In this document: positions 1,333-58,559 of the stretch, one piece after another
How positions within the stretch are numbered: the stretch's first letter is position 1
Layout of the letters: every line of letters begins with the position of its first letter
NCBI GenBank assembly: GCA_947184155.2
Contig: CAMXCT020003746.1
Location: 108,501-172,500 of the forward strand
DNA from: Cladocopium goreaui
Taxonomy: Eukaryota; Sar; Dinophyceae; Suessiales; Symbiodiniaceae
Direction of reading: 5' to 3'
DNA: 64,000 nt
Notes under the pieces: generated by a model
The model's database searches: none
Seen by the model: only the letters and a program-made list of their open reading frames with translations
What the model was told of the DNA's origin: nothing
Translations under genes and position numbers: made by a program

Positions 1333-4300
1333 CCAAGAAACTTCCGGCACCTCGCCTCCTGAAGCACTCGCGCAGCTTCCGTGCGCACGATGCGATGCTC
1401 CGTTGGGTCCAACAGGACCTGGGCCGCGCTGGGCCGCGGTGGAGGTGCGCGGTGGATTGACACGAAACCATAGGAAAACCATACGGAAACCATAGGAAAA
1501 TGGTGATTTAACTAGCAAAGATAAAGAAAAACAGTGGAAATAGTAGGAAAATGGTGATTTAAATAGCAAAGATAAAGAAACATAGGGAAATAGTTGATAC
1601 ATTGTGATTTAACGATAGAAACCATAAAACAAAGTTGCTGTGAATTCATGAGATTTATAGTGTGGCTGATTCATGATAGTCTGGTAGCAGAGTTTCATTG
1701 GTTGAAACTTTTCACGGGATATTCACCATGAAACATACAGATTTAACCAAACAATAAAAATGATGATACAGTAGGGATATAACCAACAACATTGATTAAG
1801 GATGGCAATGGAAACCATAGCTAAATAGTGAATTTCGTCAACAAATAAATGGAGAATGTTCATAGGATTGATAGCTGATTTATGATAGCCAATAGATTTG
1901 TATATTCATTGATCTTATAGATAATGTTCCTTCCAAAAATGTGTTCCTTGGTTTTCCATGTTGCCAGTATCAAATGGCTCCAAACTGATCCACACTTGTT
2001 GGAATTCCGTCGTACATCCAAAACGTCGCCCAGCTAACTATCGGATGCTACAGGTATATTCATCATAAACCCAACCATTATCCAAGTCAAATCCATCAAC
2101 TTATCTATTGGTTGGGAGCCGGCATGGTAATCGTCCCCTGTTATCATTTATCTCCTCAAGACTGGATGTATCTCGTGTATCTGCTGATGATGATACCCCC
2201 GCGTCAGCCTAGCCTACCAAACAACAACCACAAAATGCTGGTCAACAATCCACCTGAAACTATTTTTGGTATTTCCCCACCCCTGTTACTATAAGTATGA
2301 TATATGTATTCGTATTAAAATATAGTTACATGAAACATATTAGCATTTGCGCACATATGTAAAAAAAGACACATAAATAATATATATATATATATCCTGA
2401 AACAGATATAATATGGATTTTCAAGTGGATAATGTTTGACATTGTCATATTCTACGTGCTCCGGGATGACTATAAACATGTATATATATATATACCCTCT
2501 GGTAAACTGTTACATAACTATTGAACATCACTATTTTTAATGGGTAAATCCACTATCAATCACGATTTCCACTAGCTTTTTGTTAACGTTTACCATAGGG
2601 TATAGCAGAGAAATGACTCCAGTTGCCCCAGCCCCACCTGGCAACACAGCTTCGTCACTTTCGCGACGCCGACGCCGCCCTGCGCAGCGTTGCCTCTTTG
2701 GGACTTCGCCGCGCTTTGCGTCATCTTCAGGGCGCTCAATGCCCTCCTCAGGTGGAAGAAACCCAACATTTACCCTCTGGTTATTTAACATATCCATGGA
2801 AAATCACCATTTTTTTTGGTAAACCATCTGTAAATAGGCCATGTCCCATGGCTATGTTAAATAACCAGAGGGTAGATGGGATTTCACCACAGAAAAAAAA
2901 GTGATTTAAACATGAACAGTTTGAGGTAAAAAGATGACTTAAACATCGGGGATTGAACTATCAAACATGGTGATTGAACATTGATTTATGATGGAAAAAT
3001 AGGTGTATAACTACAATACTTAGAATTCATTGTCAATATAGTTGAATGGGTTTATAAAGAAACTTATAAAAGGGAAGCGAAAGGAGATATGGTAAGAACC
3101 AAAAACATGATGATAAACATATGTATCAAGCAAAAGAAACAAACACACAAAAGAGATCTGATTCCAAACTATATATGGTGATGCAACCAAAAACAATATT
3201 ACATGAGAAATATGAACTGTCAAGCCTGGTGATGCAACCGGCTTGTGGTTAAGCCACCCATGAATATATCAGGCACTTGGAGTTCACTCTTCGACAGAGA
3301 TTGAATGTCTCTTTCTTTCTGAGGTCCTTGAGCTTGGGCTGAGATACAATCTCCTTGTAGGTTTCATGTTGTGAAAGCCTGTGACCGAGCTGCCTTTTGC
3401 CGAGGCCATACATCCCATCACAATACTGGTGATGTAGAGATGTCGGACAGTTCAATCCAGCACAGCACACTGGTTGCGGGGCACCATAGTTGTAAGTTGG
3501 CTTATAAAGCCAATGAATACTATAGTTGTTTTCATTACCATAAATCCAATAGTGAAACTGGAGATATTTGCCCCGATTTGGCTATCGTAAACGGGGGACC
3601 CACCTTAGATGATTTGGTTTGCCAGCATTGATCGGCCTTGACCATGGGGCCATGGGGCTCCGCAACAACGAAAAGACAGTGTGCCAGTGCGCGAGTTTTT
3701 TTGCATTTGCATATTTATGGGCCAGCGCAAAAAAACAACACACACGGGACTGTGCCCTAACTCGATGGATTATCTACAGGATGCGCGGTTTTTACCATCA
3801 AATATGGGTGTTCCTGAAAATTCTCGCTGCCAAGTCTGGGACGAAATTCACAAAGAGAGTTCCGTGGAGTGGCCGGCAGCAACTCCGAACTAACAGCTAT
3901 GGTCCAGAAAAAAAAATGCGTTTGGACTTTTGGACGCACCAATAGTTGCCTTTATTGGCATAAACTAAGTCGAATCTTAAACCATCCATGTGTTCAGGGG
4001 TCAGCTGGACTTGACTGAGTTAGATTTGATGAAGTGTTGGTTAGATGGGTTAAAAATAGTTTAATGATATAGGTATACTCTTGGTCAATATCTAACTGAT
4101 GATGATTTCTTTTTTGAAAAAAAACTCATATCTAATATGCGTTGGTTAGGCAATAATAGATTAGATGAGTTAGATTCGTACTAACATTCAGATTTTTTCC
4201 CGAGAGCGTCTGAGCGCAGGGTTCTTCCAATAGTGGGGGTCTGTATCTCATCTTCTCATCTTCACACCTTCTCATCTTCACACCTTCTCTCACATCTTCT

Positions 4301-6738
4301 CATCTTCACACCTTCTCATCTTCACACCTTCTCATCTTCACACCTTCACATCTTCTCATCTTCACATCTTCTCATCTTCACATCTTCTCATCTTCACATC
4401 TTCTCATCTTCACACCTTCTTCTTCACCTCTGCACATCTTCACATCTGCTCACGCCTTCTCATCTTCACATCTGCTCATCTTCACATCTGCTCATCTTCA
4501 CATCTGCTCATCTTCACATCTGCTCATCTTCACATCTGCTCCTCTTCACATCTTCTCATCTTCACATCTTCTCTCCTTTCTCTCTCCCTTTTCTCTCTCT
4601 CGCCTTCTTTATCTTTCTCTCTTTAGGCCGAGGGTGGTGCCGGCGGGGAGTCACGAAACGTCAACCCTTTCGCACGAAATGAGGATCGATCGTCAAAAAC
4701 TGAAGTAAAATTGCGGTTTTACGTGCCCCGGAGCAACCCTTTCGCACGAAATGAAGGTCGATCGTCGAAAACTGCGGTAAAATTGTGCGACTTTACGTGC
4801 CCCGGAGCAACCCTTTCGCACGAAATGATGGTCGATCGTCAAAAACTGAAGTAAAATTGCGATTTTACGTGCCCCGGAGCAACCCTTTCGCACGAAATGA
4901 GGTTCGATCGTCAAAAACTGAAGTAAAATTGCGGTTTTACGTGCCCCGGAGCAACCCTTTCGCACGAAATGAGGTTCGATCGTCGAAAACTGCGGTAAAA
5001 TTGCGATTTTACGTGCTCTTTCGCACGAAATGAGGTTCGATCGTCAAAAACTGAAGTAAAATTGCGATTTTACGTGCCCCGGAGCAACTCTTTCGCACGA
5101 AATGAGGTTCGATCGTCGAAAACTGAAGTAAAATTGCGATTTTACGTGCCCCGGAGCAACTCTTTCGCACGAAATGAGGTTCGATCGTCGAAAACTGAGG
5201 TAAAATTGCGATTTTACGTGCCCTGGAGCATCTGTGTAAAAGTGTTTGTGTGTAAAAGCTTCTGTGTGTAAAAGTGTTTGTGTGTAAATTGGTTTGTGTG
5301 TGCGAGTGTTTCTGTGTAAAGATGTTTGTGTGTAAAAGTGTTTGTGTGTAAAAGTGCATCTGTGTAAAAGTGTTTGTATGTAAAAGTGTTCGTGTGTCAA
5401 ACGGCCTCTGTGTCAAAGCGTCTATATGTAAAAGCTTCTGTGTGTAAAAGTTTTTGTGTGTAAAAGCGTCTGTGTGTAAAAGTGTTTGTATGTAAAAGCT
5501 TCTGTGTGTAAAAAAAAATTGTGTGTAAAAGCGTCTGCGTGTAAACGCTTCTGCGTGTAAAAGCTCCTGTGTGTAAAAGGGTCTTTGTTAAAAGTGTCTG
5601 TGTGTAAAAGTGTCTGTGTGTAAAAGTGTCTGTGTGTAAAAGCATCTGTGTAAAAGCGTATGTGTGTAAAAGTGTCTGTGTGTAAAAGCTTCTGTGTAAA
5701 AGCGTATTTGTGTAAAAGCTTCTGTCTGTAAAAGCTTCTGTGGGTAAAAGCTTTGTGTGTAAAAGTGTCTGTGTAAAAGCGTCTGTGTGTAAAAGCTTCT
5801 GTGTGTGAAAGTGTCTGTCTGTAAAAGCTTCTGTGTGTGAAAGCTTTTGTGTGTAAAAGCTTCTGTGTGTAAAAGCTTCTGTGTGTAAAAGTGTTTGCGA
5901 TGCAAGCTATTGTCTTGCACTTCTGCTATTTTGTCTTAATACTCCTCTTCTCGACTGCCTATAGCACATCTTTAATATATTGTTTCTAATATGGTGTCTC
6001 CATACTAACAAGAGAAGACCCTGCTCCTCTACGCTCTCGGGCCATCCGTCGTCTAGTAATAGTTTTTACTTGGTGGCTCATCCCACTTACTAAATGGGTT
6101 ATATCCCTGTAGTTATAAGTGGGATAAGTATAGAGTTAATCTACTTACAACTAAGGTGAACTAACCTACTTGGGTTATAACCGTTATAACCTACTCACAA
6201 ACTGAGATGAGCCACCAAGTACCCTATCCATTACAGTTTAATATCTCTTACGTCTCCCCATCGCGGGCCGGGCGATGCCTCCGCTCTTGTGCTGTTTTCG
6301 CTCCGCTGTCGAAGAGTTCCAGTTGGAGTTCCACGAGCCTCAGCGTTGCGAAAGCACCCTGCCTGAATTTTTCTGGCTTCACCAAACAAAAACGAAACCA
6401 TACACTTGTGGCCCAATGAACAGTTATTTTTATGGGCTTATTTCAAGATCTATAACCTAATTAGTTTTGGGAGTTATTTCATTCCATTTATAACTGTTAG
6501 TTGGGCAATAATTGTGACGGAACCAATGTGATTTCACGAAACATTTCACGGGGAAGTTGGGGCAAACACCGGTTTTTGTTGCTGGGGTTTATGGTAGATA
6601 GATCTATAGTAGCTCTAGTTCATAGGGTTTATGAGCCGACTTAAAGTAATAGCCGAACCATTAGCGTGTTCCACTCAGAGTCTCTTGCTTCCAACGGCAT
6701 ATCCTCATCACTGACTTCTGAATCACTGTTGACCCAGC
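1333..6738 (-). CDS. partial gene model, six exons, product unknown
   Basis: Minus-strand exons at 6738-6659, 6362-6252, 3882-3814, 3425-3288, 2746-2638 and 1418-1333 join in one open frame of about 197 codons, open at both ends. The first exon is acidic (SDSEVSDEDMPLEARDSEW), the third reads LLPATPRNSLCEFRPRL, the fourth YCDGMYGLGKRQLGHRL and the fifth is arginine-rich. Donors are GTTCGG, GTAAGAG, GA, GTGAAC and GTGGGG; the GA donor at 3814 is weak. I do not recognise the protein. A second frame is also open in the exons at 6252 (VELQLELFDSGAKTAQ) and 2638 (ALKMTQSAAKSQR) with higher GC3, so the frame there is uncertain. The 3.5-kb intron downstream of 6252 holds two exons and the whole 1.86-kb composite element. 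Confidence 0.4.
2493..2602. mobile_element. family A element (TACCCTCTGGTAA)
   Basis: Bounded by TACCCTCTGGTAA and TTACCATAGGGTA, with internal CATAACTATTGAA and TTTTTAATGGGTAAATC. It lies directly beside the exon at 2638-2746. In nearly all copies the terminal dinucleotide is TA, compatible with a TA target as in Tc1/mariner-type MITEs. Confidence 0.75.
2771..2875. mobile_element. family A element
   Basis: Bounded by TACCCTCTGGTTATTTAACATA and its complement TAACCAGAGGGTA. With the copy at 2493-2602 it brackets a single candidate exon, as expected if element insertion made or filled the introns on both sides. Confidence 0.75.
4246..4575. repeat. 16-bp tandem array CTTCTCATCTTCACAT
   Basis: Pyrimidine-rich 16-bp units with CTTCTC/CTGCTC variants inside composite element 1. 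The complement (GATGTGAAGATGAGAAG) recurs at about 33298-33505 in copy 2. Confidence 0.8.
4655..5228. repeat. 72-bp tandem array, open in frame
   Basis: About eight units spaced 72-74 bp, each with ACGTGCCCCGGAGCAAC, TTTCGCACGAAATGA and GATCGTCAAAAACTG. Because 72 is a multiple of three, the array stays open and yields a 24-residue repeat (FYVPRSNPFARNE... on plus, FVRKGCSGARK... on minus). The inverted array lies at about 32715-33215. I read these frames as repeat by-products. Confidence 0.8.
5229..5905. repeat. 16-bp tandem array TGTAAAAGCGTCTGTG
   Basis: About forty degenerate units of TGTGTAAAAGC(G/T)TCTG. The complement TTTTACACACAGACGC fills 31960-32700 and 51745-52280 in the other copies. 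Confidence 0.8.
6068..6220. mobile_element. family C element
   Basis: ACTTGGTGGCTCATC at the left and GATGAGCCACCAAGT at the right are exact complements. The middle has CTACTTACAACTAAGGTGAAC, also found in the degenerate copy near 34470-34595. It starts 11 bp after the end of composite element 1. Confidence 0.75.
6411..6508. mobile_element. family E element
   Basis: Reads TGGCCCAATGAACAGTTAT ... TTATAACTGTTAGTTGGGCA, the family-E signature (complementary GGCCCAACTAACAGTTAT ends), with TTATTTCATTCCATTT inside. Lies between two minus-strand exons. Confidence 0.6.
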
Positions 6739-17000: not shown

Positions 17001-20000
17001 TCAAAGTAATCCCTTCTTCTTCTTCTTTTCTTTCTGCGCGATTTGAAGCTGCAACTGCTCGCCAACGTGACACTTGGAATTCCGATGCAATCTTACATGG
17101 GCCTTTGCATGTCTCTGAGGCACAGACCTTGCGATAAATAAAAAATGAAAATAACACATCAAAAAACGAATAAAAAGAAAAACGCGCAATACTAAACACT
17201 CCCAAGAAACCATGGTGGATGGGAACACACAAAAACTTTTTTGGGTTCATTTCTGGGATGTTTCATATTACCCTCTGGTAAACTATACAAAAAACTATGG
17301 AAAATCACAATTTCATAGTTGGGTAAATCAACTATTTCCATGGGGTATGTTCAATAGCAAATGTAACAAATGACCAGAGGGTAGCCTTCATTGAAAACAA
17401 TCATAAACCATTTAGTTCGTTGATTTAGCCACTAGAAAATTGTATTTTTCCAGTTCGCTATGTAACAGTTTACCAGAGTGTATTAGGTTTAGGGATGATC
17501 CACTTCAAATACCAGCGACATCACCCACTCATCCCACTCATCACTTCCGCGAGCACAGGTGGCCATCACCTTGAGCGCAGCCCAAGATGGGTCGATTTTT
17601 TGGCGGATGGAATGGAGGTCGCCTATATCTAGAAGGTGTCTGAAGGTAGTCCAGCATCAATGGGAATTCCAGGATCCTAAAATGGAGGTACTGTACCATA
17701 TTTCTGGCCATATTTTGCTGGGATATTCCCTTACATAGGCCTAACAAATAGGCCTTATAGATGGCAGGTACCTCCAATAAATAGGTTCCTGTTGCATGGC
17801 CATTGACAGCATGTGGCTGCTGATTGGTTTCATGATGTGAAGCATAGCTTCGTACGATTTTGATGGTTATCGCTGACCAATCATTCCTGGTTAGTGGTTG
17901 AGCCTACCCCTCTGAAAAATGATGGACTTCGTCAGTTGGGATGATGACATTCCCAACTGAATGGAAAGTCAAAAAAATCCATGGTTCCAGTCACCACCAA
18001 CCAGCATTTGATGTTGTGATTGAACATACATTGTTGGGGCACGGTCAAATAATTGTCCAGAAAATGATCTATTATTCTTATGCTACATTCTTTAAGACCA
18101 TGTTGCTGGGTAAATTATAATATGTCACTAACCTGAATTGTTGGGCCATTTGGGGATGATTTCCCTAACATAAACCATGATTCCAGGGCTCGGGAGAACA
18201 GGGTTCGGTCGCTATAATTTACCCAGATCTATTAACTATACTATAGTTATAAATGTAACTATACCATTAATTATACCATTATATGTCATAAACCATAGTT
18301 GCACTAGTTGTAAACCAATTTATATAGCTCTCCTTGGGCCACCACCCTTGTAATTTGAAAATTTATGGTATGTGACAATTATGGGGTTTGAGAGGTTTGT
18401 TTGTGATCCTCCTATACGAATATCTACTAGTCATAGGCTAATCCTAATTGAAGTGTCCTTCTTGTAAACACATGCAAAATTCCCATTTTGGGGGTATAAG
18501 CGGGTATAGCACAGTTTCAGAAACACCCTTATAGCAGGGCTGCTCCTAGCACCCAAACGAGGAACACTGGGTAGATGGATAGGTAACATGATTAAATTTC
18601 CATCCAAAGAGTTACTATAATTCATCTACAATAATTAGGTTGAAGGAACCCTGATGTTTGTTGCTTCAATTCAATCTGTGCTATTATATGCCTATCATAT
18701 CCCTATTATATTAATCATACACCATATAATATAAAAAACATAGAAACCCATCAAACATCATATTATAAATCCCCATAAAACCGTATAAAACCAGGTAGAA
18801 CATACATAAACCCATACAATGTGGGGACCCCCACTTATAAGTTGGTTTATAAACCCCATCTAAGTATAGTTTCAGTATATCTACCATAAAGCAGAGTTAA
18901 TTCAGCCACTGGGTGAATCTTAGGCAACTGAACGCAACATCGAACGGGGCCCCATCCTGTCATTGATCACTTTTTTTGGGGGCGAATCTAAACCATCTGC
19001 TGGGTCCCCGCACTGGGGCTCTCCATGGTATCACACTATACGGAAAAAAATCAAAAGGTATGGTTTACTTGCCTAGGTTCAGTATGGTTTATGGTAGATA
19101 TATCTATCCCTATGGATCCATGGCCACTGCCTGAGAAGGTACTTGTATAACCCCCTAGTCATCATACCCCAGTCGTACTTCCTAAGAAGGTACAACTGGA
19201 TCATCATGGGGTTGAATCCCATTAAGCCAAAACCACAAATATCCCACGTTTTCACCGCCGAGGCGCGAATCCAGCGTTCGCAGCCTCGGAGGTTGCGAGT
19301 TGCGCTTCAACGTGGGGATGATCTCCTGTCGGCGAGCCGTTGCGCCGGACTGCGCTGGCACTGCACATGGAATACCGATGGAACATATAATGGGATTAGT
19401 TTCTAAATATATGGGTTTATGATGGGTTTAATATGATGGGTTTATGGTTTATGATGGGTTTATGATAGGGTAAATATGATGGGTTTATGGTTTATGATTG
19501 GTTTATGATGGGGTAAATATGATGGGTTTATGGTTTATGATCGGTTTATGATGGGTTTAATATGATGGGTTTATGGTTTATGATGGGTTTATGATAGGGT
19601 AAATATGATGGGTTTATGGTTTATGATTGGTTTATGATGGGGTAAATATGATGGGTTTATGGTTTATGATCGGTTTATGATGGGGTAAATATGATGGGTT
19701 TATGGTTTACGATGGGTTTATGATGGGGTAAATATGATGGGTTTATGGTTTATGATTGGTTTATGATGGGGTAAATATGATGGGTTTATGGTTTACGATG
19801 GGTTTATGATGGGGTAAATATGATGGGTTTATGGTTTATGATGGGTTTATGATGGGGTAATTATGATGGGTTTACCCTCTGGTAAACAAACAAAGCTATT
19901 GAACATGGCCATTGTGAAATAGTGGATTGACCCATTAAATCATAATGGTGATTTTCCATAGTTATGTAAACGTTTACCAGAGGGTAATGGGTATATACTT

Positions 20001-23000
20001 GGTGGCTCATCTCACTCAGTAAGCGGTTATAATCCTAGTTGTAAGTAGATTAACCCTACTTATCCGACTTATAACTAGGGATATAATCTATTTAATATGT
20101 AGTAAGTGGGATGAGCCACCAAGTAAGGGTTATATAATGGGTATATAAGGGTTATATAATGGGTATATACAGGTTATATACTGGGTAAATAATGGTTATA
20201 TTAAAATAAGGGTTATATAATTGGTATTCAACGGATATATGATATGTATATAAAGGTTACATATTCTATGCCAGTAATACAACATTACGATCGTATACGG
20301 AATAAACGATATACAAATATATCGATATGTTAATGGCGATATGTAATGTAACATTAATGAATAGAACAGATGGAATATATAATGGGGAAACTTGATGGAG
20401 AGGCGTCTAGATGTCTGTCTAGAGTCAGTCTAGATTAGATTCAGTCTAGATAAATGCACCCATTTACTATATAGATATATATCATGATGTATCTACCATA
20501 AACATCCATAAAGCAGAATTAGCTTAGTTGTGAACCAACCAACTTAGCTATCTAGCGGGCCCCACTGCCCCACCTTCTAACAAATCAACGAGGATACAAT
20601 TGGGGATATTCTGGTTATATCATATGGATAATATAGGGATTCCATAATGCTGGTAGGTATTGAAAAGTTGCTGATTGAGATGCACATATGATGCTTCGCC
20701 CCGCCCTGTGACTTGAACTTCTGGAAACCCATAAGTGTCAAGTTTGGGTGCAAGCGTTGTGGCCACTGCTCGCTTCATAAATGCCCTTTCCTGAGCATTT
20801 CGTTTCCTGGTGAAAGACCCCCAGTATTTGGTAGGTCGGCTTACTTGGTGGGCATATAATCAGCCTTGGATTCCGTATACCCTCTGGTAAACATACAAAA
20901 AGCTATTGAACATGGCCCATTTATAGTGGATTGATTTACCCATAAGAAATTGTGATTGTCCATAGTTATTTTAGTTTGCCAGAGGGTATCTATGGTTTAT
21001 GGTTTAACATGGCTTAACTATCTATTTAGATGTAGTAGATATATCTAGAATGGGTGTTTTTTGAAGTAATATATATATAATATGTACACGATATTACATT
21101 ATTATTTACTATATAAGCAAGACATTTACAGTAACCTACTTCTAAACATTAAACCTATATATATATATACGTTCGCGTTTCGACTGGACGACGGGACTGC
21201 TCCTCAAAGGCCACGGTGGTGGGTTTTGTCTCCACCAAGCCCAGAGCTTCCAAGGTGTAGTCCTAGGGATTTCACCATGGATTTCACGCCATGGGAATCA
21301 TGGGATTTTTGCCAAAGAAAAACATGGTTAAAAAAACATAGACGTTTTGTGTTTGTTTTACCATGGGAATTTTACCATCAACATGTTGGGCCAGGGGGTT
21401 TCCTGGGATTTTTTTTGTATTTTGGATGAGGGTTTGAGCAACAAAAAAGAGTTGCTTTATCAGACAGAATGCTTGTTTGTGTTTGTGATGGCCATTCCAA
21501 CCAACCAGAAACAGGACCTGATGACCTGATGACCTGCACCATTCAGGACTTGAGGTCCCAAATGGGAAAATTGAAATAGGGAAAGGAGTAGGGCGGGTGT
21601 TTTTAACATGTTTTAACGCTGTCTTCTTTCCCAGAATCTGTGTTCTTGATTCCATGAAAGAATTATGGTGGTGTTTCATAGTTTCCTTATCAAGTCCTCT
21701 ATTTCCTGTGGTATGTCCACTGGTTCAAGAGTACGTCATTTCCATCTTGACTTTATTTAAATTTCATAGAAAAGGTCAAAGAAGTGGATACAAATTAACA
21801 ATGACACAGACCCTGCGTCTCCCACACTGGTTACAGTACTTGACCTGACAGGGATCACCCTTGTGGATTGTGATATTCCCCGTTATATTGGCTGGTCACG
21901 GTTACAGTAGTATATCCCCGAACTCATCATCGACCGGGGTAGATCACAAACACTGCGCTCAAATGCATCCACCCACTCTTGCATCCATCAATGCATCTTT
22001 TCATACAACACTGTTTTGAATTACATATAGTTTACATATGTACATAAATCATATATGTGTACATATGTAATCTATATGTGTATATATGCACTATCATGAG
22101 GTTGGGAAACTCTAACTAGCTCCTTGGCTATCCATTTAGTAGTGAATATGCAGACACATAGCTGCTTAGCTCCCTCTTAAACACCGGAAAGTATATCGTT
22201 ACAGGTACATTCACACACATATATATACATATATATGTAGTTATACATGTATGTATGTATATATATATAGTTATCTATCTATATATATATATAATTACGC
22301 ACAAGACTTTCGGTTCGCCGTCGCCTCAAATGGAAAATTTCCATGCAAGCATCTTCTTCCCATCTTTTCTTCTCACAGGTCGTGCAACCAGTTCCTTCAA
22401 AGGCCCCCTGGCCCTATTCAAAGGGATGCTATTCAGCTTTGCAAAGGTCAGAGGCAATTTGGCTACGAACAAGCAACAAAATGCATTGAGGTAGCACAAT
22501 ATGTAAAATATTGGTCATATTTTAATTTAAAATAAAGACAAAAAAAAAGAACAAAAAAACAAAAATAACATTTTTGGGGGGGGGGCGATTTTTTGCTTCC
22601 AATACCACTTTTAGAAGGTATCAGAGCACCCCTCTGCTCAACGACCTCGTCCCACACTCCACAACGCAGAAAAAATATGTTTCATAGATTTTTTTCATAT
22701 TTTTTGTGGGCCCAATTCCATCACTTTAAATATATCATGAAACAAAACAAATTAAGAAAATTTAGCAAAAAGACTCTGATTAGCACCCATTTGAATAGAG
22801 CCCGTTTTTCTGGTTTGAAGCATTCGCGAGGAGTCATTTTAATCTCCCCTCGCCCCTCGTGAGAGCTTTGCGCCACTCTACCCCACCCCACCCGAAACCA
22901 CAAAAAAAAATGCCCACCCATTTCAGGCAAAAAACGCACCAACATCCATTTCGTCCCACAAAACACAGGTAAAATGAGCACGCGTGTACTTGTTTGCTGA

Positions 23001-31650: not shown

Positions 31651-31763
31651 GTGTCTGACAAGGGGCTTGCCTGGTGACTGGTGATATTAATGATATTGTT
31701 ATAGTCTGGTTCGTGGTATACCTACCCCGCTGAAAAATATGAGTTCGTCCGTTGGGATGATGG
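31651..31763. repeat. second copy of the 29476-29588 segment
   Basis: GGTGTCTGACAAGGGGCTTG, GGTGACTGGTGATATTAATG and the start of a family-B element repeat the order seen at 29476-29588, so this is a small segmental duplication; here the element is cut by the composite insertion. Confidence 0.7.
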
Positions 31764-33586
31764 AACTAGACGACGGATGGCCCGAGAGCGTAGAGGAGCA
31801 GAGTCTTCTGTTGTTAGTATGGAGACACTATATTACAAGATAATATATTAAAGATGTATTATAGGCAGACGAGAAGAGTAGTATCAAGACAATATATGAC
31901 TAGTACAAGACAATAGTTTGCATCGTATTTTTGTAAAGTTTTTCATACACAGAACTTTTTACAGACAGACGCTTTTGCACACAGAGACTTTTACACACAG
32001 ACGCTTTTACACACAGACGCTTTTACACACAGACGATTTTGCACACAGAGACTTTTACACATTTTACACACAGAGCTTTTACACACAGAAGCTTTTACAC
32101 ACACACACGCTTTTACACACAGACGCTTTTACACACAGAGCTTTTACACACAGACGCTTTTACACACAGACGCTTTTACACACAGACGCTTTTACACACA
32201 GACGCTTTTTACACACAGAGCTTTTACACACAGAGACTTTTACACACAGAGACGCTTTTACACACAGAAGCTTTTACACACAGACGCTTTTACACACAGA
32301 CGCTTTTACACACAAACACTTTTACACACAAACACTTTTACACACAGACGCTTTTACACACAGACGCTTTTACACACAGACGCTTTTACACACAGACGCT
32401 TTGACACACAGACCCGTTTACACACAGAGGCTTTTACACACAGAAGCTTTTACACACAGACGCTTTTACACACAGACGCTTTTACACACAGACGCTTTTA
32501 CACACAGAGCTTTTACACACAGACGCTTTTACACACAGACGCTTTTTTACACACAGAGGCTTTTACACACAGACGCTTTTACACACAGAGCTTTTACACA
32601 CAGACGCTTTTACACACAGACGCTTTACACACAGACGCTTTTACACACAGACGCTTTTACACACAGACGCTTTTACACACAGACGCTTTTACACACAGAC
32701 AAGTCCGGCACAAGTAAAATCGCAATTTTTCCTCAGTTTTTGACAATCGACCCTCATTTCGTGCGAAAGGGTTGCTCCGGGGGCAAGTAAAATCGCAATT
32801 TTTCCTCAGTTTTTGACGATCGACCCTCATTTCGTGCGAAAGGGTTGCTCGGGGGCACGTAAAATCGCAATTTTTCCTCAGTTTTTGACGATCGACCCTC
32901 ATTTCGTGCGAAAGGGTTGCTCGGGGGCACGTAAAATCGCAATTTTACGTCAGTTTTTGACGATCGAACCTCATTTCGTGCGAATGGGTTACTCCGGGGC
33001 ACGTAAAATCGCAATTTTACCTCAGTTTTCGACGATCGACCTTCATTTCGTGCGAAAGGGTTGCTCCGGGGCACGTAAAATCGCAATTTTACCTCAGTTT
33101 TCGACGATCGACCTTCATTTCGTGCGAAAGGGTTGCTCCGGGGCACGTAAAATCGCAATTTTACTTCAGTTTTTGACGATCGATCCTCATTTCGTGCGAA
33201 AGGGTTGACGTTTCGTGACTCCCCGCCGGCACCACCCTCGGCCTAAAGAGAGAAAGATAAAGAAGGCGAGAGAGAGAAAATGGAGAGAGAAAGGAGAGAA
33301 GATGTGAAGATGAGCAGATGTGAGAGAAGATGTGAGAGAAGATGTGAAGATGAGCAGATGTGAGAGAAGATGTGAGAGAAGATGTGAGAGAAGATGTGAG
33401 ATAAGATGTGAAGATGAGCAGATGTGAGAGAAGATGTGAGAGAAGATGTGAGAGAAGATGTGGAGATGAGCAGATGTGAGAGAAGATGTGAAGATGAGAA
33501 GATGTTTTACAGACCCCCACTATTGGAAGAACCCTGCGCTCAGACGCTCTCGGGAAAAAAACAACATGTTCCAAAACACCAACCAG
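31706..33586. mobile_element. family B element split by the composite element
   Basis: The left half CTGGTTCGTGGTATACC...GTTGGGATGATGG (31706-31765) and right half ATGTTCCAAAACACCAACCAG (ending 33586) are two parts of one family-B copy. Some of the middle is missing, so insertion came with a small deletion or the copy was already short. Confidence 0.75.
31766..33561. mobile_element. composite satellite-carrying element, copy 2
   Basis: Starts CTAGACGACGGATGGCCCGA, carries a unique AT-rich end, the TTTTACACACAGACGC array (31960-32700), the 72-bp array (32715-33215), the CCCGCCGGCACCACCC link, a GATGTGAGAGAAGAT array (33298-33505), and ends CAGACGCTCTCGGGAAAAAAA. It matches copy 1 in reverse orientation. 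The insertion lies inside a family-B element, giving outer ends by eye. The A-run at one end recalls a retroposed tail but is short. Confidence 0.8.
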
Positions 33587-37245: not shown

Positions 37246-38470
37246 TTTTTTTCCCGAATGCGTAGCAAGGGTTCCTGTTTCACTCTGGGGGTCTGGGGGT
37301 TGAGGGTGTGTTCGCTGGACGTTGCGTTTACGACCGCGACTGCTCGCAGCCGTTCACAACCGTCCGCATGAGGGCCGTATGGCCGTGCCTATGGTAAGCT
37401 TTGCACACGTGGTCACTTTTGAAGGTTTCAGATGTCGTGTAGCCCCGTTTCACGTGGCAGGTGTGGCATTTCGTGACATTCAGACGTGTTTCGTAACGTG
37501 TGGAAAATCGTTTTGTGGCAAGCGCAATACATGCGTTGCTTTTTTCGTGGCAGGCGCAACACTTTCGACGTGACCGTCTTCGTTTCGCGTGGCACGCGCA
37601 GCACTTTAGACGTGTCTTGTGGCTCGTTTTGTTCGAATCGCATTCTCAGGGCTGCGTGAAGTGGTGACAAGGTGCAAATTCCGTGGCAAGCGTGGCATTT
37701 TGTGAGATGTGCTGAATTCTGACGGAAGCCTTGCACGAAATAGCGATTTTGAAGTTGCAAATTTTCATGTTCTAGGAAAACTCGTGGGAAAACATCGATT
37801 TTGAAGCTACAAAGTGTCAAAATTGGAGGAAGTCTCGCACGAAATACTCGTTTTGACGCTCCAACATGTCTCGTCTCGAGTCTCTGGTTATCTTCTGGCT
37901 TCGCCGCGTCTATGGGGGAAGCTGCAAAAACATATCCTTTTTGAAGTTGTCAAAGCAAGTTGTAATGTCGCTTTGCGTGGTCGGTGTGGCATTCTTTACA
38001 CTCTATACACTTTAGACTCCACACTCCACACTTCACACTTTATACTCTACACTCCACACTCTATACACTTTACACTCCACACTTTACACTTTACACTCCA
38101 CACTCTACACTCTACACTTTACACTCCACACTCCCCACTCCCCACTCCACACTTCACACTCCACACTGTAAACTCCACACTTTACACCTTGCACTCCACG
38201 CTCCACATTGTACATTTTTTGCACTCCGCACTCTACACTTTACAATCTACACTCCGCACTTTACACTTTACACTCCATACTTTACACTCCACGCTCCACA
38301 CTTTACACTGTACACTCTACACTTTACACACCCCACTTTACACTCCACACTTCACATTCTACACTTTACACTCCGCACTCTACACTCCACTCCACCTTCC
38401 ACAGTTTACACTTTACACTCCACACTTTGCACTCCACCCTTTTCCACATTCCACAGTCTACAGTGCACTG
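37246..38470. mobile_element. diverged relative of the composite element
   Basis: Begins TTTTTTTCCCGAATGCGTAG, followed by CTGGGGGTCTG, comparable with TTTTTTCCCGAGAGCGTC and GTGGGGGTCTG of copy 1. Then come degenerate GTGGCA(G/A)GYGTGGCATTTCGTGA units, TCTCGCACGAAATACTCG (compare TTTCGCACGAAATGAGG), and an array of TTTACACTCCACAC units (37990-38470). The far end is not identifiable. The satellites differ from copies 1-3 although the framework is alike. Confidence 0.6.
37990..38470. repeat. TTTACACTCCACAC tandem array
   Basis: About 33 units of 14-15 bp (ACACTTTACACTCC) with frequent single-base variants; the long open frames across it are repeat translations. Confidence 0.85.
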
Positions 38471-38971: not shown

Positions 38972-39190
38972 CTACAATGTGGGGCCCCGAGTTATAAGTT
39001 GGTTTATTACACAATCTACCCTGGTTGGTGGTTTCAACCCCTCTGAAAAATATTAGTCAGTTGGGATGATTAGTCCCAATATATGGAAAAAATAAAAAAG
39101 TTCCAAACCACCAACCAGTAACTATAGTTATAACTACCATAAACCCTAGTGAACTTGTAGTTATTTGGCCCAACGTAGCTATCACAGATC
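38972..39190. mobile_element. family D element with nested family B element
   Basis: CTACAATGTGGGGCCCCGAG...TTTATTACACAATCTACC is separated from TAACTATAGTTATAACTACC and CCAACGTAGCTATC by a full family-B element (39021-39118). Without it the D copy has normal length. Confidence 0.7.
39021..39118. mobile_element. family B element nested in family D
   Basis: CTGGTTGGTGGTTTCAACC to CCAAACCACCAACCAG, intact ends. Confidence 0.8.
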
Positions 39191-46218: not shown

Positions 46219-46584
46219 TCAGAGCAACGCTTCGTGTTCTTCCAAGAACCTTTGCGGATCTGGATTTTCTAAGCTACAACGCCAGCACCACATGAACATA
46301 TATTGTGTCACTGAAGGGTGCATCTTAGAATGCCTACGGTCTTTGTGTTTCAAAACCATGTGAGCTGGCAAGAAGTCTTTTAAAGACTTCCAGGACCGGC
46401 CCAACGTTTGTGTCCCGGCAATGTTGGAAACACCACGAAACATCTTCGGTCCTTCAGATGTAAAATTCTTTACTTGATGAACTACACTTTGTACAGGGAT
46501 ACCACGGCGTTCTGCTGCTGACTTCCAAGCTCGGTTTCCATCAGGGCAAATGACGCTGGAACCGGTGATCCTGTCGCATAGCAT
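46219..46584 (-). pseudogene. ISXO2-like Merlin transposase, C-terminal remnant
   Basis: The frame has VICPDGNRAWKSAAERRGIP (the second catalytic Asp in PDGN), VQSVVHQVKNF, then TQTLGRSWKSLKDFL where ISXO2 domains usually have a Glu in N-x-x-E-x-x-W-x-x-L-K, and YMFMWCWR near the end (compare YLxEFxWR). The upstream half with the first Asp is missing, replaced by the 45-bp array, and the expected Glu reads Gly in my alignment. It therefore looks inactive. Confidence 0.75.
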
Positions 46585-46935
46585 GACGCATGAGTGGAAA
46601 GTTCAAGAGAACTGACAGTCGCATAGCATGACGCATGAGTGGAAAGTTCAAGAGAACTGACAGTCGCGTAGCAGGACGCATGAGTGGAAAGTTCAGGAGA
46701 ACTTACAGTTCGGTAGCAGCGTAGCATGATGCAAGAGTGGAAAGTTCAAGAGAACTTACAGTAGCGTAGCATGACGCATGAGTGGAAAGAACTGACAGTT
46801 GCGTAGCATGACGCATGAGTGGAAGGTTCAAGAGACCTTACAGTAGCATAGCAGCGTAGCATGACGCAAGAGTGGAAAGTTCAAGAGAACTTACAGTAGC
46901 GTAGCATGACGCATGAGCGGAAAGTTCAAGAGAAG
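46573..46935. repeat. 45-bp tandem repeat inside the Merlin element
   Basis: About eight units of GCGTAGCATGACGCATGAG plus TGGAAAGTTCAAGAGAACTTACA, spacing 45 bp with short deletions. Forty-five is a multiple of three, so the 15-residue frame (ELSTHASCYATVSSL) stays open on minus. Confidence 0.8.
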
Positions 46936-51560: not shown

Positions 51561-52290
51561 CTAGACGACGGATGGCCCGAGAGCGTAGAGGAGCAGGGTC
51601 TTCTGTTGTTAGTATGGAGACACTATATTACAAGACAATATATTACAAGATGGAGTATAGGCAGACGAGAAAAGTAGTACCAAGACGATATAGCACAAAC
51701 ATAAGACAATAGTTTGCATCGATCTTGCATATAGTTTCTTCACACACAGAGACTTTTACACACGGACGTAGACGCTTCTACACACGGACGCTTTTGTACG
51801 CAAACACTTTTACAAACAGATGCTTTTACACACAGAAGGTTTTACACACATACGCTTTTACACGCAGACACTTTTTTACACACGGAAGCTTTTACGCACA
51901 GATGCTTTTACACACAGAAGTTTTTACACACGGACGCTTTTACACACAGACGCTCTTTCACACAGATGCTTTTACACACGGAAGCTTTTACACACAGACA
52001 CCTTTACACACGGAAGCTTTTGCGCACAGACATTTTTACACACATAGGCTTTTACACACGGACGCTTTTACACGCAGACACTTTTACACACAGACGCTTT
52101 TGCACGCAAACACTTTTACATACAGATGCTTTTACACATAGAAGCTTTCACGCACAGAGGCTTTTACACGCAGACACTTTTACACGCAGACGCTTTTACA
52201 CACAGACACTTTTACACAGAGACGCTTTTACACATATAGAAGCTTTTACACACAGAAGCTTTTACACACAGACGCTTTTACCACAGAAGC
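51561..52290. mobile_element. composite satellite-carrying element, copy 3 (truncated)
   Basis: Starts CTAGACGACGGATGGCCCGA, keeps the AT-rich end (GTTAGTATGGAGACACTA, CAATAGTTTGCATCG) and the TTTTACACACAGACGC array, and stops without the 72-bp array or the other terminus. The preceding GGTACCCCCCCTGAAA resembles the start of a family-B element. Confidence 0.75.
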
Positions 52291-56729: not shown

Positions 56730-58541
56730 TCACTGGCAACTCACCAACAGATCACTAATCGCGAAAGTATGCAGGCTACTGGGAAAGGTCAAGCCTTCCA
56801 GGTTCTGTTTGAAGTCACGACCAAACCTCAAGCTTTGCAGGCTGCATGGGAATGTCACGCCCTTCAAGCTTTGGTTGAACTTTTGGCCAAACTCCAGATC
56901 TTCCAAGGCACTTGGAAAGGTCACAGCTTCCAGGTTCTGATTGAACTTGTCACCGAATCTTAAGCTTCGCAGACTGCTTGGGAAAGTCACATTCTCCAAG
57001 TTCTGGTTGAAAGAAACACCAAACGTCAGGGATTGCAAGCTGCCCGGGAAGATGACGCCCAGGAGGTTCTGGTTGAAATTGTAGCCAAACTTCAAATGTT
57101 GAAGAGTATTTGGGAAGGTCATGCCTTCCAAGCTCTGATTGAACCTAGTGCCAAATGTCAAGCTTCGCAGACCACTTGGCAATATCACCCCAGCGAGGTT
57201 CTGGTTGAACTCACCCTGAAACGTCAAGTTTTGTAGAGTGTTTGGAAGTGTCGCACCTTCCAGGCCGTGATTGAACCTGTTGCCAAAGGTCAGGCATTGC
57301 AGGCTGCTTGGGAAGGTCACATCTTTCAGACTCTGGTTGAACCACCCGCCAAGTGTCAAGCTTTGCAGCTTGTTTGGAAAGGTCAGGTAGGGTAAATTCT
57401 GCTGAGAGCTGACCAATAAGGTTTGGAGAGAACTTGGGAAGCTAAAGCTCTTCATGTTTGGATTGAAGGCAGACCCAAACTTCAGGGATTGCAGACTGCT
57501 AGGGAAGGCGACACCCTCCAGGTCTTGGTTAAATTCATCTCCAAAGCTCAAGCTTTGCAAACAGCTTGGGAAGGTGACACGCTCTATATTTTGGTTGAAG
57601 GCACCATGAAATGTCAAGCTCTGCAAACAGGCTGGGAAGGCGACGCCCTCGATCGTTTGGTTGAAGGCACCACGAAACGTCAAGCTTTGCAGACCACTTG
57701 GGAAGGAAACACCATCCAAGTTTTTGTTAAAGTCAAAACCAAACGTCAAGTTTTTGAGGCCATCTGGGAAGGTCACGTTCATCAGCTTCTGGTTAAACTT
57801 ATCACCAAATGTCAAGCTTTGCAGGCCACTTGGCAATGTCACACCCTCCAACTTCTGGTCAAATGCCCAACCAAACGTCAAGCTTTTGAGATTGTTTGGA
57901 AATGTCACACCCTCCAACTTGTTGTTGAAGTCAAAACCAAACTCTAGTTTTTCCAAAGTGCTTGGAAAGGTCACGCCCTCTAGGTTCTGGTTGAACCTAT
58001 CGCCAAACGTCAAACTTTGCAGACCAATTGGCAACGTCACGCCCTCTAGCCTTTGGTTCATCGCATCACCAAACGTCAAACTTTGCAAACGGCTTGGCAA
58101 AGTCATGCCTTCCAGGCTTCCTTTGAACCCCTTGCCAACTGTCAAGCTTTGAAGGTTTTCTGGGAGGTTGTACAGGACTTCGCTAGTTGCGGCACCCATT
58201 ATGCATGTCACCCCTTCCAGTGCAAATGGCTCTTCTTCATTTGCCTTTCCCTGGACAAAGGACATTGCAGAACACAAATCTGTGGAGCAGAGTGTATATG
58301 TCAATGTCGCCTCCTGGCCCCCAATCCCTTGATCTTGCAAGGTCTTGTTGCCAGCCTTCGCCGGAAGCTTCTCTGCCACCATTTGCCGCACATCCTGGCC
58401 ACGAGTCGTGACAGGGACTGCGAAGGCACCGATCAATTCTTCACCACTCAGGCCGCAGACGTGGAGCTTCAGGGGGTCCGATTGAGCCACTTGGCCTCCG
58501 GTGTCTTCGGGGGCATCAGAAGATGCAGCCCCCATCACCAA
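56730..58541 (-). CDS. ubiquitin-like / BspA-type leucine-rich repeat protein, single exon
   Basis: A 603-codon uninterrupted frame. Residues about 25-90 (LKLHVCGLSGEELIGAFAVP ... QDVRQMVAEKLPAKAG ... TLQDQGIGGQEATLTYTL) look like the degenerate ubiquitin-like fold common at the N-terminus of dinoflagellate proteins. From about residue 130 come 21 repeats of 22 residues (66 bp), consensus LTFGDxFNQNLEGVTFPSSL plus QS, with one short unit (LLVSSQQNLPYLTFPNKLQS). This is the LRR_5/BspA pattern, usually a solenoid for protein contact; no enzyme domain, signal peptide or membrane segment is seen. FAISDLLVSCQ caps the end. Met at 58541 is the first in frame; the next, six bases on, is equally possible. 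Unlike all neighbours it has no intron over 1.8 kb, which could mean retroposition or recent repeat growth. Upstream to 58890 another minus frame (DTDNNDKTYLLSRIYATHIL) may be a 5' exon or untranslated. Confidence 0.9.
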   Translation of the reverse strand: MVMGAASSDAPEDTGGQVAQSDPLKLHVCGLSGEELIGAFAVPVTTRGQDVRQMVAEKLPAKAGNKTLQDQGIGGQEATLTYTLCSTDLCSAMSFVQGKANEEEPFALEGVTCIMGAATSEVLYNLPENLQSLTVGKGFKGSLEGMTLPSRLQSLTFGDAMNQRLEGVTLPIGLQSLTFGDRFNQNLEGVTFPSTLEKLEFGFDFNNKLEGVTFPNNLKSLTFGWAFDQKLEGVTLPSGLQSLTFGDKFNQKLMNVTFPDGLKNLTFGFDFNKNLDGVSFPSGLQSLTFRGAFNQTIEGVAFPACLQSLTFHGAFNQNIERVTFPSCLQSLSFGDEFNQDLEGVAFPSSLQSLKFGSAFNPNMKSFSFPSSLQTLLVSSQQNLPYLTFPNKLQSLTLGGWFNQSLKDVTFPSSLQCLTFGNRFNHGLEGATLPNTLQNLTFQGEFNQNLAGVILPSGLRSLTFGTRFNQSLEGMTFPNTLQHLKFGYNFNQNLLGVIFPGSLQSLTFGVSFNQNLENVTFPSSLRSLRFGDKFNQNLEAVTFPSALEDLEFGQKFNQSLKGVTFPCSLQSLRFGRDFKQNLEGLTFPSSLHTFAISDLLVSCQ

Positions 58542-58559
58542 GGAAGGTCAACATCGCAA

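Follow-up and report, generated by a model that had tools for sequence, protein, structure and literature searches.

A dispersed, satellite-bearing element family in Cladocopium goreaui resembles non-autonomous Helentrons

Helitron2 elements are defined by asymmetric terminal inverted repeats and a hairpin at both ends, according to the accessible text of PMC3627910, and Chlamydomonas Helitron2 copies insert after TTTT without duplicating the target (PMC3627910, PMC5148889). Non-autonomous Helentrons with internal arrays are described in animals. In the Pacific oyster, Cg_HINE elements contain a microsatellite together with a satellite-like array, of which there are exceptionally two, and in the accessible text no partner is identified (PMC7492417). 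The HINEs of mites and Culex and the DINE-1 of Drosophila insert at TT with no duplication and in some cases contain tandem repeats, and in two Culex HINE families such repeats account for about half of the element (PMC4067079). Satellite-bearing Helentrons in the accessible parts of these sources are all from animals (PMC7492417, PMC4067079), and a dense dinoflagellate family would extend this pairing of tandem repeats with a rolling-circle element to a distant branch of life. One Symbiodinium-related paper names Helitrons, in its accessible text, only as a repeat class in a single sentence (PMC9087856), and the own repeats of such genomes tend to remain unclassified, as is said of a Cladocopium assembly (PMC9412976, accessible part). 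A literature search, outside which most subscription papers and Repbase lay, found no mention of a Helentron in dinoflagellates, and a broader one gave, among the papers listed, no title on this topic; neither result proves that the family is new.

We analysed a 64,000-nucleotide window of the Cladocopium goreaui assembly (contig CAMXCT020003746.1, positions 108,501 to 172,500), to which the coordinates below refer. It contains two complete elements of one family and a partial third:

4199..6056, + strand: copy 1, complete element, 1858 bp, both ends common to the genome-wide family
4199..4209, + strand: copy 1, 5′ terminal inverted repeat CCCGAGAGCGT (sequence reading)
4249..4573, + strand: copy 1, array A, CATCTTC-type, period 8/16 (TRF)
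4574..4661, + strand: copy 1, pyrimidine stretch and GC-rich link (sequence reading)
4662..5230, + strand: copy 1, array B, 72-bp unit, 8 copies (TRF and unit count)
5233..5891, + strand: copy 1, array C, 16-bp unit, about 41 copies (TRF)
5892..6030, + strand: copy 1, AT-rich 3′ tail (sequence; similar tail in most other copies read)
6031..6041, + strand: copy 1, 3′ subterminal inverted repeat ACGCTCTCGGG (sequence reading)
6042..6056, + strand: copy 1, 3′ terminal 15 nt CCATCCGTCGTCTAG, followed by T (sequence and family loci)
31706..33586, strand not assigned: 98-bp inverted-repeat element split by copy 2, in pieces 31706-31761 and 33553-33586 (alignment)
31766..33554, − strand: copy 2, complete element, 1789 bp (shared ends, array order, split host repeat)
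31957..32700, − strand: copy 2, array C, 16 bp (TRF)
32714..33207, − strand: copy 2, array B, 72 bp (TRF)
33272..33491, − strand: copy 2, array A, 12/40/52/64-bp periods (TRF)
51561..52287, − strand: copy 3, 5′-truncated, 3′ end, tail and array C only (TRF and sequence)

Read 5′ to 3′ in copy 1, by TRF and directly, the element consists of CCCGAGAGCGT, the CATCTTC array, the pyrimidine and GC-rich link, the 72-bp array, the 16-bp array, the AT-rich tail, ACGCTCTCGGG and CCATCCGTCGTCTAG. TRF and the sequence thus bear out the composite family that the initial annotation had described, with three arrays in fixed order, copies in opposite orientation and shared ends. Both complete copies stand as it had placed them, with bounds corrected from 4193 to 4199 and, for the end of copy 2, to 33554, the A-run there being flank. 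What it had taken for a second 16-bp array is indeed an array, but of the CATCTTC type (copy 1 has periods 8/16, copy 2 has 12/40/52/64) and unrelated to the TTTTACACACAGACGC array. The sequence CTAGACGACGGATGG, which it had set outside one inner repeat, is instead the 3′ terminus of the element, since host sequence changes after CTAG. The copy at 51561 is partial, as it had said, and keeps the 3′ end, the tail and array C, within which it breaks off. An Rfam scan of the window gave no match at gathering scores.

Searching the whole assembly (1.17 Gb, 6,202 contigs) with the terminal sequences placed a 30-mer of the 3′ end at 865 + 864 = 1,729 sites (at most one mismatch) and a 31-mer of the 5′ end at 857 + 842 = 1,699 sites (at most two mismatches), with 0 sites for either reversed control. 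The exact 16-mer occurs at 21,040 + 20,205 places, versus 16 + 7 for the control. The notion that these might be the only copies therefore fails, and the expectation of common ends holds: both ends recur in about 1,700 copies dispersed throughout the genome, with sharp joints in the loci read. Pairing was assessed among the first 100 matches listed for each end, all of them exact (all 100 5′ ends, and those 89 of the 3′ ends that lie on contigs up to C215), a procedure that misses elements with mutated ends; 64 of the 89 3′ ends are matched by a correctly oriented 5′ end no more than 25 kb away, and the resulting 64 elements have a median length of 2.3 kb (range 888-9,232 bp). Two family 3′ ends that point outwards, 4.5 kb apart, at G000:C136:437262-441752 suggest two copies standing back to back. 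Among viral contigs, the 25-nt 3′ end has no exact match.

The inverted repeats of the element are asymmetric: CCCGAGAGCGT stands at the very 5′ terminus, while its reverse complement is set 15 nt in from the 3′ end, which finishes in CTAG. The initial annotation had seen these repeats and missed their asymmetry. The repeats are perfect over 11 bp and then continue imperfectly. Asymmetric repeats are what Helitron2/Helentron elements have, with a 3′ distance that is shorter here than the 20-60 bp given in the accessible published text.

We read the flanks of 30 loci per end, each set including one C3 pair that is a duplicated locus, which leaves 29 independent loci. Apart from that pair, the flanks of the 30 loci picked by the 3′ end are unrelated, and the joints are sharp. 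The 5′ ends were picked by a pattern that contains CCCGAGAGCGT; T occupies −1 (set by the pattern), −2 and −5 in 30/30 loci, and some flanks are interrupted (TTGTT, TAATT, TGGTT) rather than a pure T run. On the 3′ side, +1 is T in 30/30 loci and +2 is T in 28/30 and C in 2/30. Insertion into T-rich or TT sites, as described for Helitron2/Helentron elements, is thus found in the 30 loci of each end. Host sequence switches directly after CTAG in 30 loci, for which the search pattern itself demanded this 3′ end; the 3′ end of a divergent relative found another way (C2:598 kb) is CTAT. In 13 distinct full copies, the two flanks match over 2.31 positions under a relaxed comparison, versus 2.50 in mispaired flanks, and over 1.23 versus 0.80 under a strict one, the excess being carried by two copies. 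There is no clear target site duplication beyond the Ts, and in T-runs a duplication of 1-2 bp is inseparable from none. In one sequence examined per end, hairpins or palindromes do not rise above shuffles, with a 3-bp stem at the 3′ end (z −0.08) and a 4-bp stem at the 5′ end (z −0.07).

We consider it probable, at roughly 80%, that the family belongs with the non-autonomous Helitron2/Helentron elements (HINEs) and depends for its movement on a Rep-helicase protein supplied in trans from another locus. Common ends, dispersal and sharp joints support the initial proposal that it spreads as a non-autonomous DNA element. Asymmetric terminal inverted repeats are shared with Helitron2 and FoHeli (PMC3627910, PMC5148889), and the placement of the repeats, with one near the 5′ terminus and a subterminal one on the 3′ side, is shared with mite HINEs (12-15 bp) and DINE-1 (13 bp) (PMC4067079). 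HINEs and DINE-1 likewise have a T-rich target, with at least TT on each side, that is left unchanged (PMC4067079). As in oyster Cg_HINE, there are subterminal inverted repeats, a 5′-side microsatellite, central satellite-like arrays in fixed orientation and dispersed non-autonomous copies (PMC7492417).

The differences are equally specific. Cg_HINE elements have a 3′ palindrome and one, rarely two, central arrays, with units of 140-180 bp in the most abundant ones, whereas here 72-bp and 16-bp arrays follow in succession and no palindrome stands out (PMC7492417, accessible text). In mite HINEs, the 3′ repeat lies 38-60 bp inside and is accompanied by a palindrome, in contrast to 15 nt and a CTAG end here (PMC4067079, accessible text). 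A 3′ hairpin is also missing from Fusarium FoHeli3-5, in the part of PMC5148889 consulted, as in the dinoflagellate family. The family agrees with HINEs in its ends, its target, its contents and the apparent absence of a duplication, and departs from them in the 15-nt CTAG 3′ terminus, the missing hairpin and the two unlike central arrays in a row. It therefore works like a satellite-bearing HINE, as a variant rather than a proven member. A mobile unit made of arrays, which the initial annotation had called unusual, is so in part, given that oyster, flies, mosquito and mites have non-autonomous Helentrons with tandem arrays (PMC7492417, PMC4067079, accessible text).

In the cycle that we propose, a Rep-helicase protein would nick T-rich DNA next to the 5′ terminal repeat. 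A single strand would then be displaced and copied up to the point where the subterminal 3′ repeat and the CTAG end are recognised, and the product would join a TT site with no target duplication. Both the rolling-circle step and the identity of the acting protein are presumed. Against the Helitron2/Helentron reading stand the hairpin, which does not exceed shuffles, and the loci examined, which hold no Rep-bearing element with family ends.

Among the alternatives, a cut-and-paste DNA transposon that bears short inverted repeats and duplicates a T or TT at its target would account for the perfect 11-bp repeats with their imperfect continuation and for T or TT on both flanks. It is improbable, as one repeat is terminal and the other 15 nt inside, and the two C residues at +2 show that a TT duplication is not constant, a single-T duplication remaining compatible. 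Asymmetric repeats together with a TT target thus favour the rolling-circle class over a cut-and-paste transposon. A classical Helitron1 (5′-TC, CTRR-3′, inserted between A and T) is a distinctly poor candidate: the element starts with TC if the preceding T is counted, CTAG fits CTRR and Rep domains occur in the genome, yet that T is itself preceded by T in 30/30 loci and never by A, so insertion between A and T is not seen. Moreover, the accessible literature describes no asymmetric inverted repeats in Helitron1, and no 3′ hairpin rises above shuffles.

The initial annotation had also offered retroposition, and on the other strand the element could be read as a retroposon that begins with CTAG and ends with CTCGGG and an A-run, as at one end of copy 2. 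This origin is very hard to sustain. In copy 3 it is the A-run end that is missing and the CTAG end that remains, the opposite of usual 5′ truncation; both sides are A/T-rich and the supposed tail is often interrupted, the 5′ flanks not being a pure run; and sharp ends on both sides occur with no clear target duplication, so that the target duplication and 3′ poly-A tail of a non-LTR retroposon are not found. Local or segmental duplication, to which the two C3 copies with nearly the same flanks and a tandem series at C3478 would be congenial, is refuted as a general cause and has next to no probability as the sole one, given 1,729 3′ ends in the assembly and, the C3 pair aside, unrelated flanks with sharp joints in the 30 loci read.

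For the trans-acting protein required by the Helitron2/Helentron reading, the genome holds 145 Helitron_like_N matches on 137 contigs (330 candidates, 150 scored), as compared with 0/14 control genomes. Of ten Rep matches on contigs up to C248 (seven covered by both end lists and three by the 3′ list alone), 0/10 lie within 25 kb of an exact family end among those listed. At C120, C929, C4966 and C1470, no family end was found in sequence extending 4-4.5 kb upstream from Rep, nor in about 5 kb further upstream at C120 and C1470, a stretch that stops short of the 5′ boundary of that Rep family. The sole trace is a 10-nt repeat with one mismatch at C929, outside a TT context. The C120 and C1470 sequences are about 98% alike over the greater part of the first stretch; the figure is 92-95% for some pieces of repeats there and 82-98% for pieces lying further up. 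This Rep-helicase family has long tandem repeats of its own upstream (C120 and C1470; L083, L084), with a period of about 343 bp. Variant family ends also exist, 18 at the 3′ side with a non-A base after the repeat (control 0) and 53 at the 5′ side with a non-C base (control 3), and none of them is on any of the 137 contigs with Rep matches.

At C3478, three junctions of the form CTAG-TCTTTCTT-CCCGAG are spaced 1,773 and 2,182 bp apart. The 5′ end of the first unit was not found within the stretch read, and the last unit has another family 5′ end inside its A array, from which that element continues to the final CTAG. This head-to-tail series is compatible with rolling-circle concatemers, and unequal crossing-over fits equally.

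The internal order is constant while array lengths differ between copies. Specifically, A-link-B-C is found in 11 of 13 distinct full copies and A-C in the other two (L010, L053). One copy (L040) contains a nested large fold-back (inverted-repeat) insert, at about 700 to 2480 of its stretch. Among divergent relatives, L038 has a CT microsatellite in place of array A and about two 72-bp units, and that at C2:598 kb combines a GA-rich stretch with a long 16-bp array. The nearest neighbours of 72-bp units lie in their own element in 37.4 of 67 cases, versus 6.1 expected, and the two C3 copies, about 5 kb apart with nearly the same flanks, measure 2,636 and 2,190 bp; arrays therefore change length in place. 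The approximately 1,700 natural copies are thus material on tandem-array growth and shrinkage, and their precise end sequences can be used for annotation.

The 72-bp unit matches 3,034 + 2,720 sites genome-wide. Among the 28 sites in the matches listed (contigs up to C215), 26 are inside a family element and in its orientation, and the remaining two have no listed family end nearby. These 28 sites suggest, short of proof for the genome as a whole, that the element is the main carrier and disperser of the 72-bp satellite. The family would explain many scattered satellite arrays in a genome of a type whose repeats tend to escape classification. Folded as RNA, the two strands of the unit give −10.4 and −11.9 kcal/mol, values that come without a shuffle control. 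A bolder and rather unlikely extension is that the element's own replication makes the satellites, slippage or re-copying growing and shrinking the three arrays at each jump. The element would then be the origin, and not only the vehicle, of the 72-bp satellite, and the hairpin-free CTAG termini would mark a separate Helitron2-like branch.

Two insertions interrupt copies of a roughly 98-bp inverted-repeat element with CTGGTTGGTGGTTT ends. This element is very dense in the window: apart from the one split by copy 2, it is present at 39021-39118 and, in full or in part, at 14 other places. In the split one, positions 1-50 are at 31706-31761 and 65-98 at 33553-33586, with 51-64 unmatched, and 13 other full or nearly full copies, counting the reference at 39021, are unsplit in the window. 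When joined, the flanks of copy 2 align across the joint to five unfilled relatives but fall short of them by 5-17 nt a few bases further on. The site either lost some bases or stems from a shorter 98-bp copy, and because of this shortfall it is by itself no proof of a clean insertion. For the second insertion (L016, the same locus as L043 and L058), the joined flanks can be aligned across the joint with 13 unfilled relatives from the window, leaving gaps of only 0-7 nt where the sequence is T-rich.

Beyond this family, the assembly contains 81 + 91 = 172 exact copies of a 21-nt sequence that we take to be the dinoflagellate spliced leader, with 0 for the control. In the window, a 605-codon open frame of FNIP repeats, which are common in Symbiodiniaceae, occupies 56730-58547 on the − strand (Pfam E 8.4e-117). 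Further tandem arrays are a 43-bp array at 19411-19874 (10.8 copies, 94% matches by TRF), a 45/135-bp array at 46573-46934 (TRF) and a TACACTC-type 7/21-bp array at 38006-38437, in which C is strongly in excess over G.
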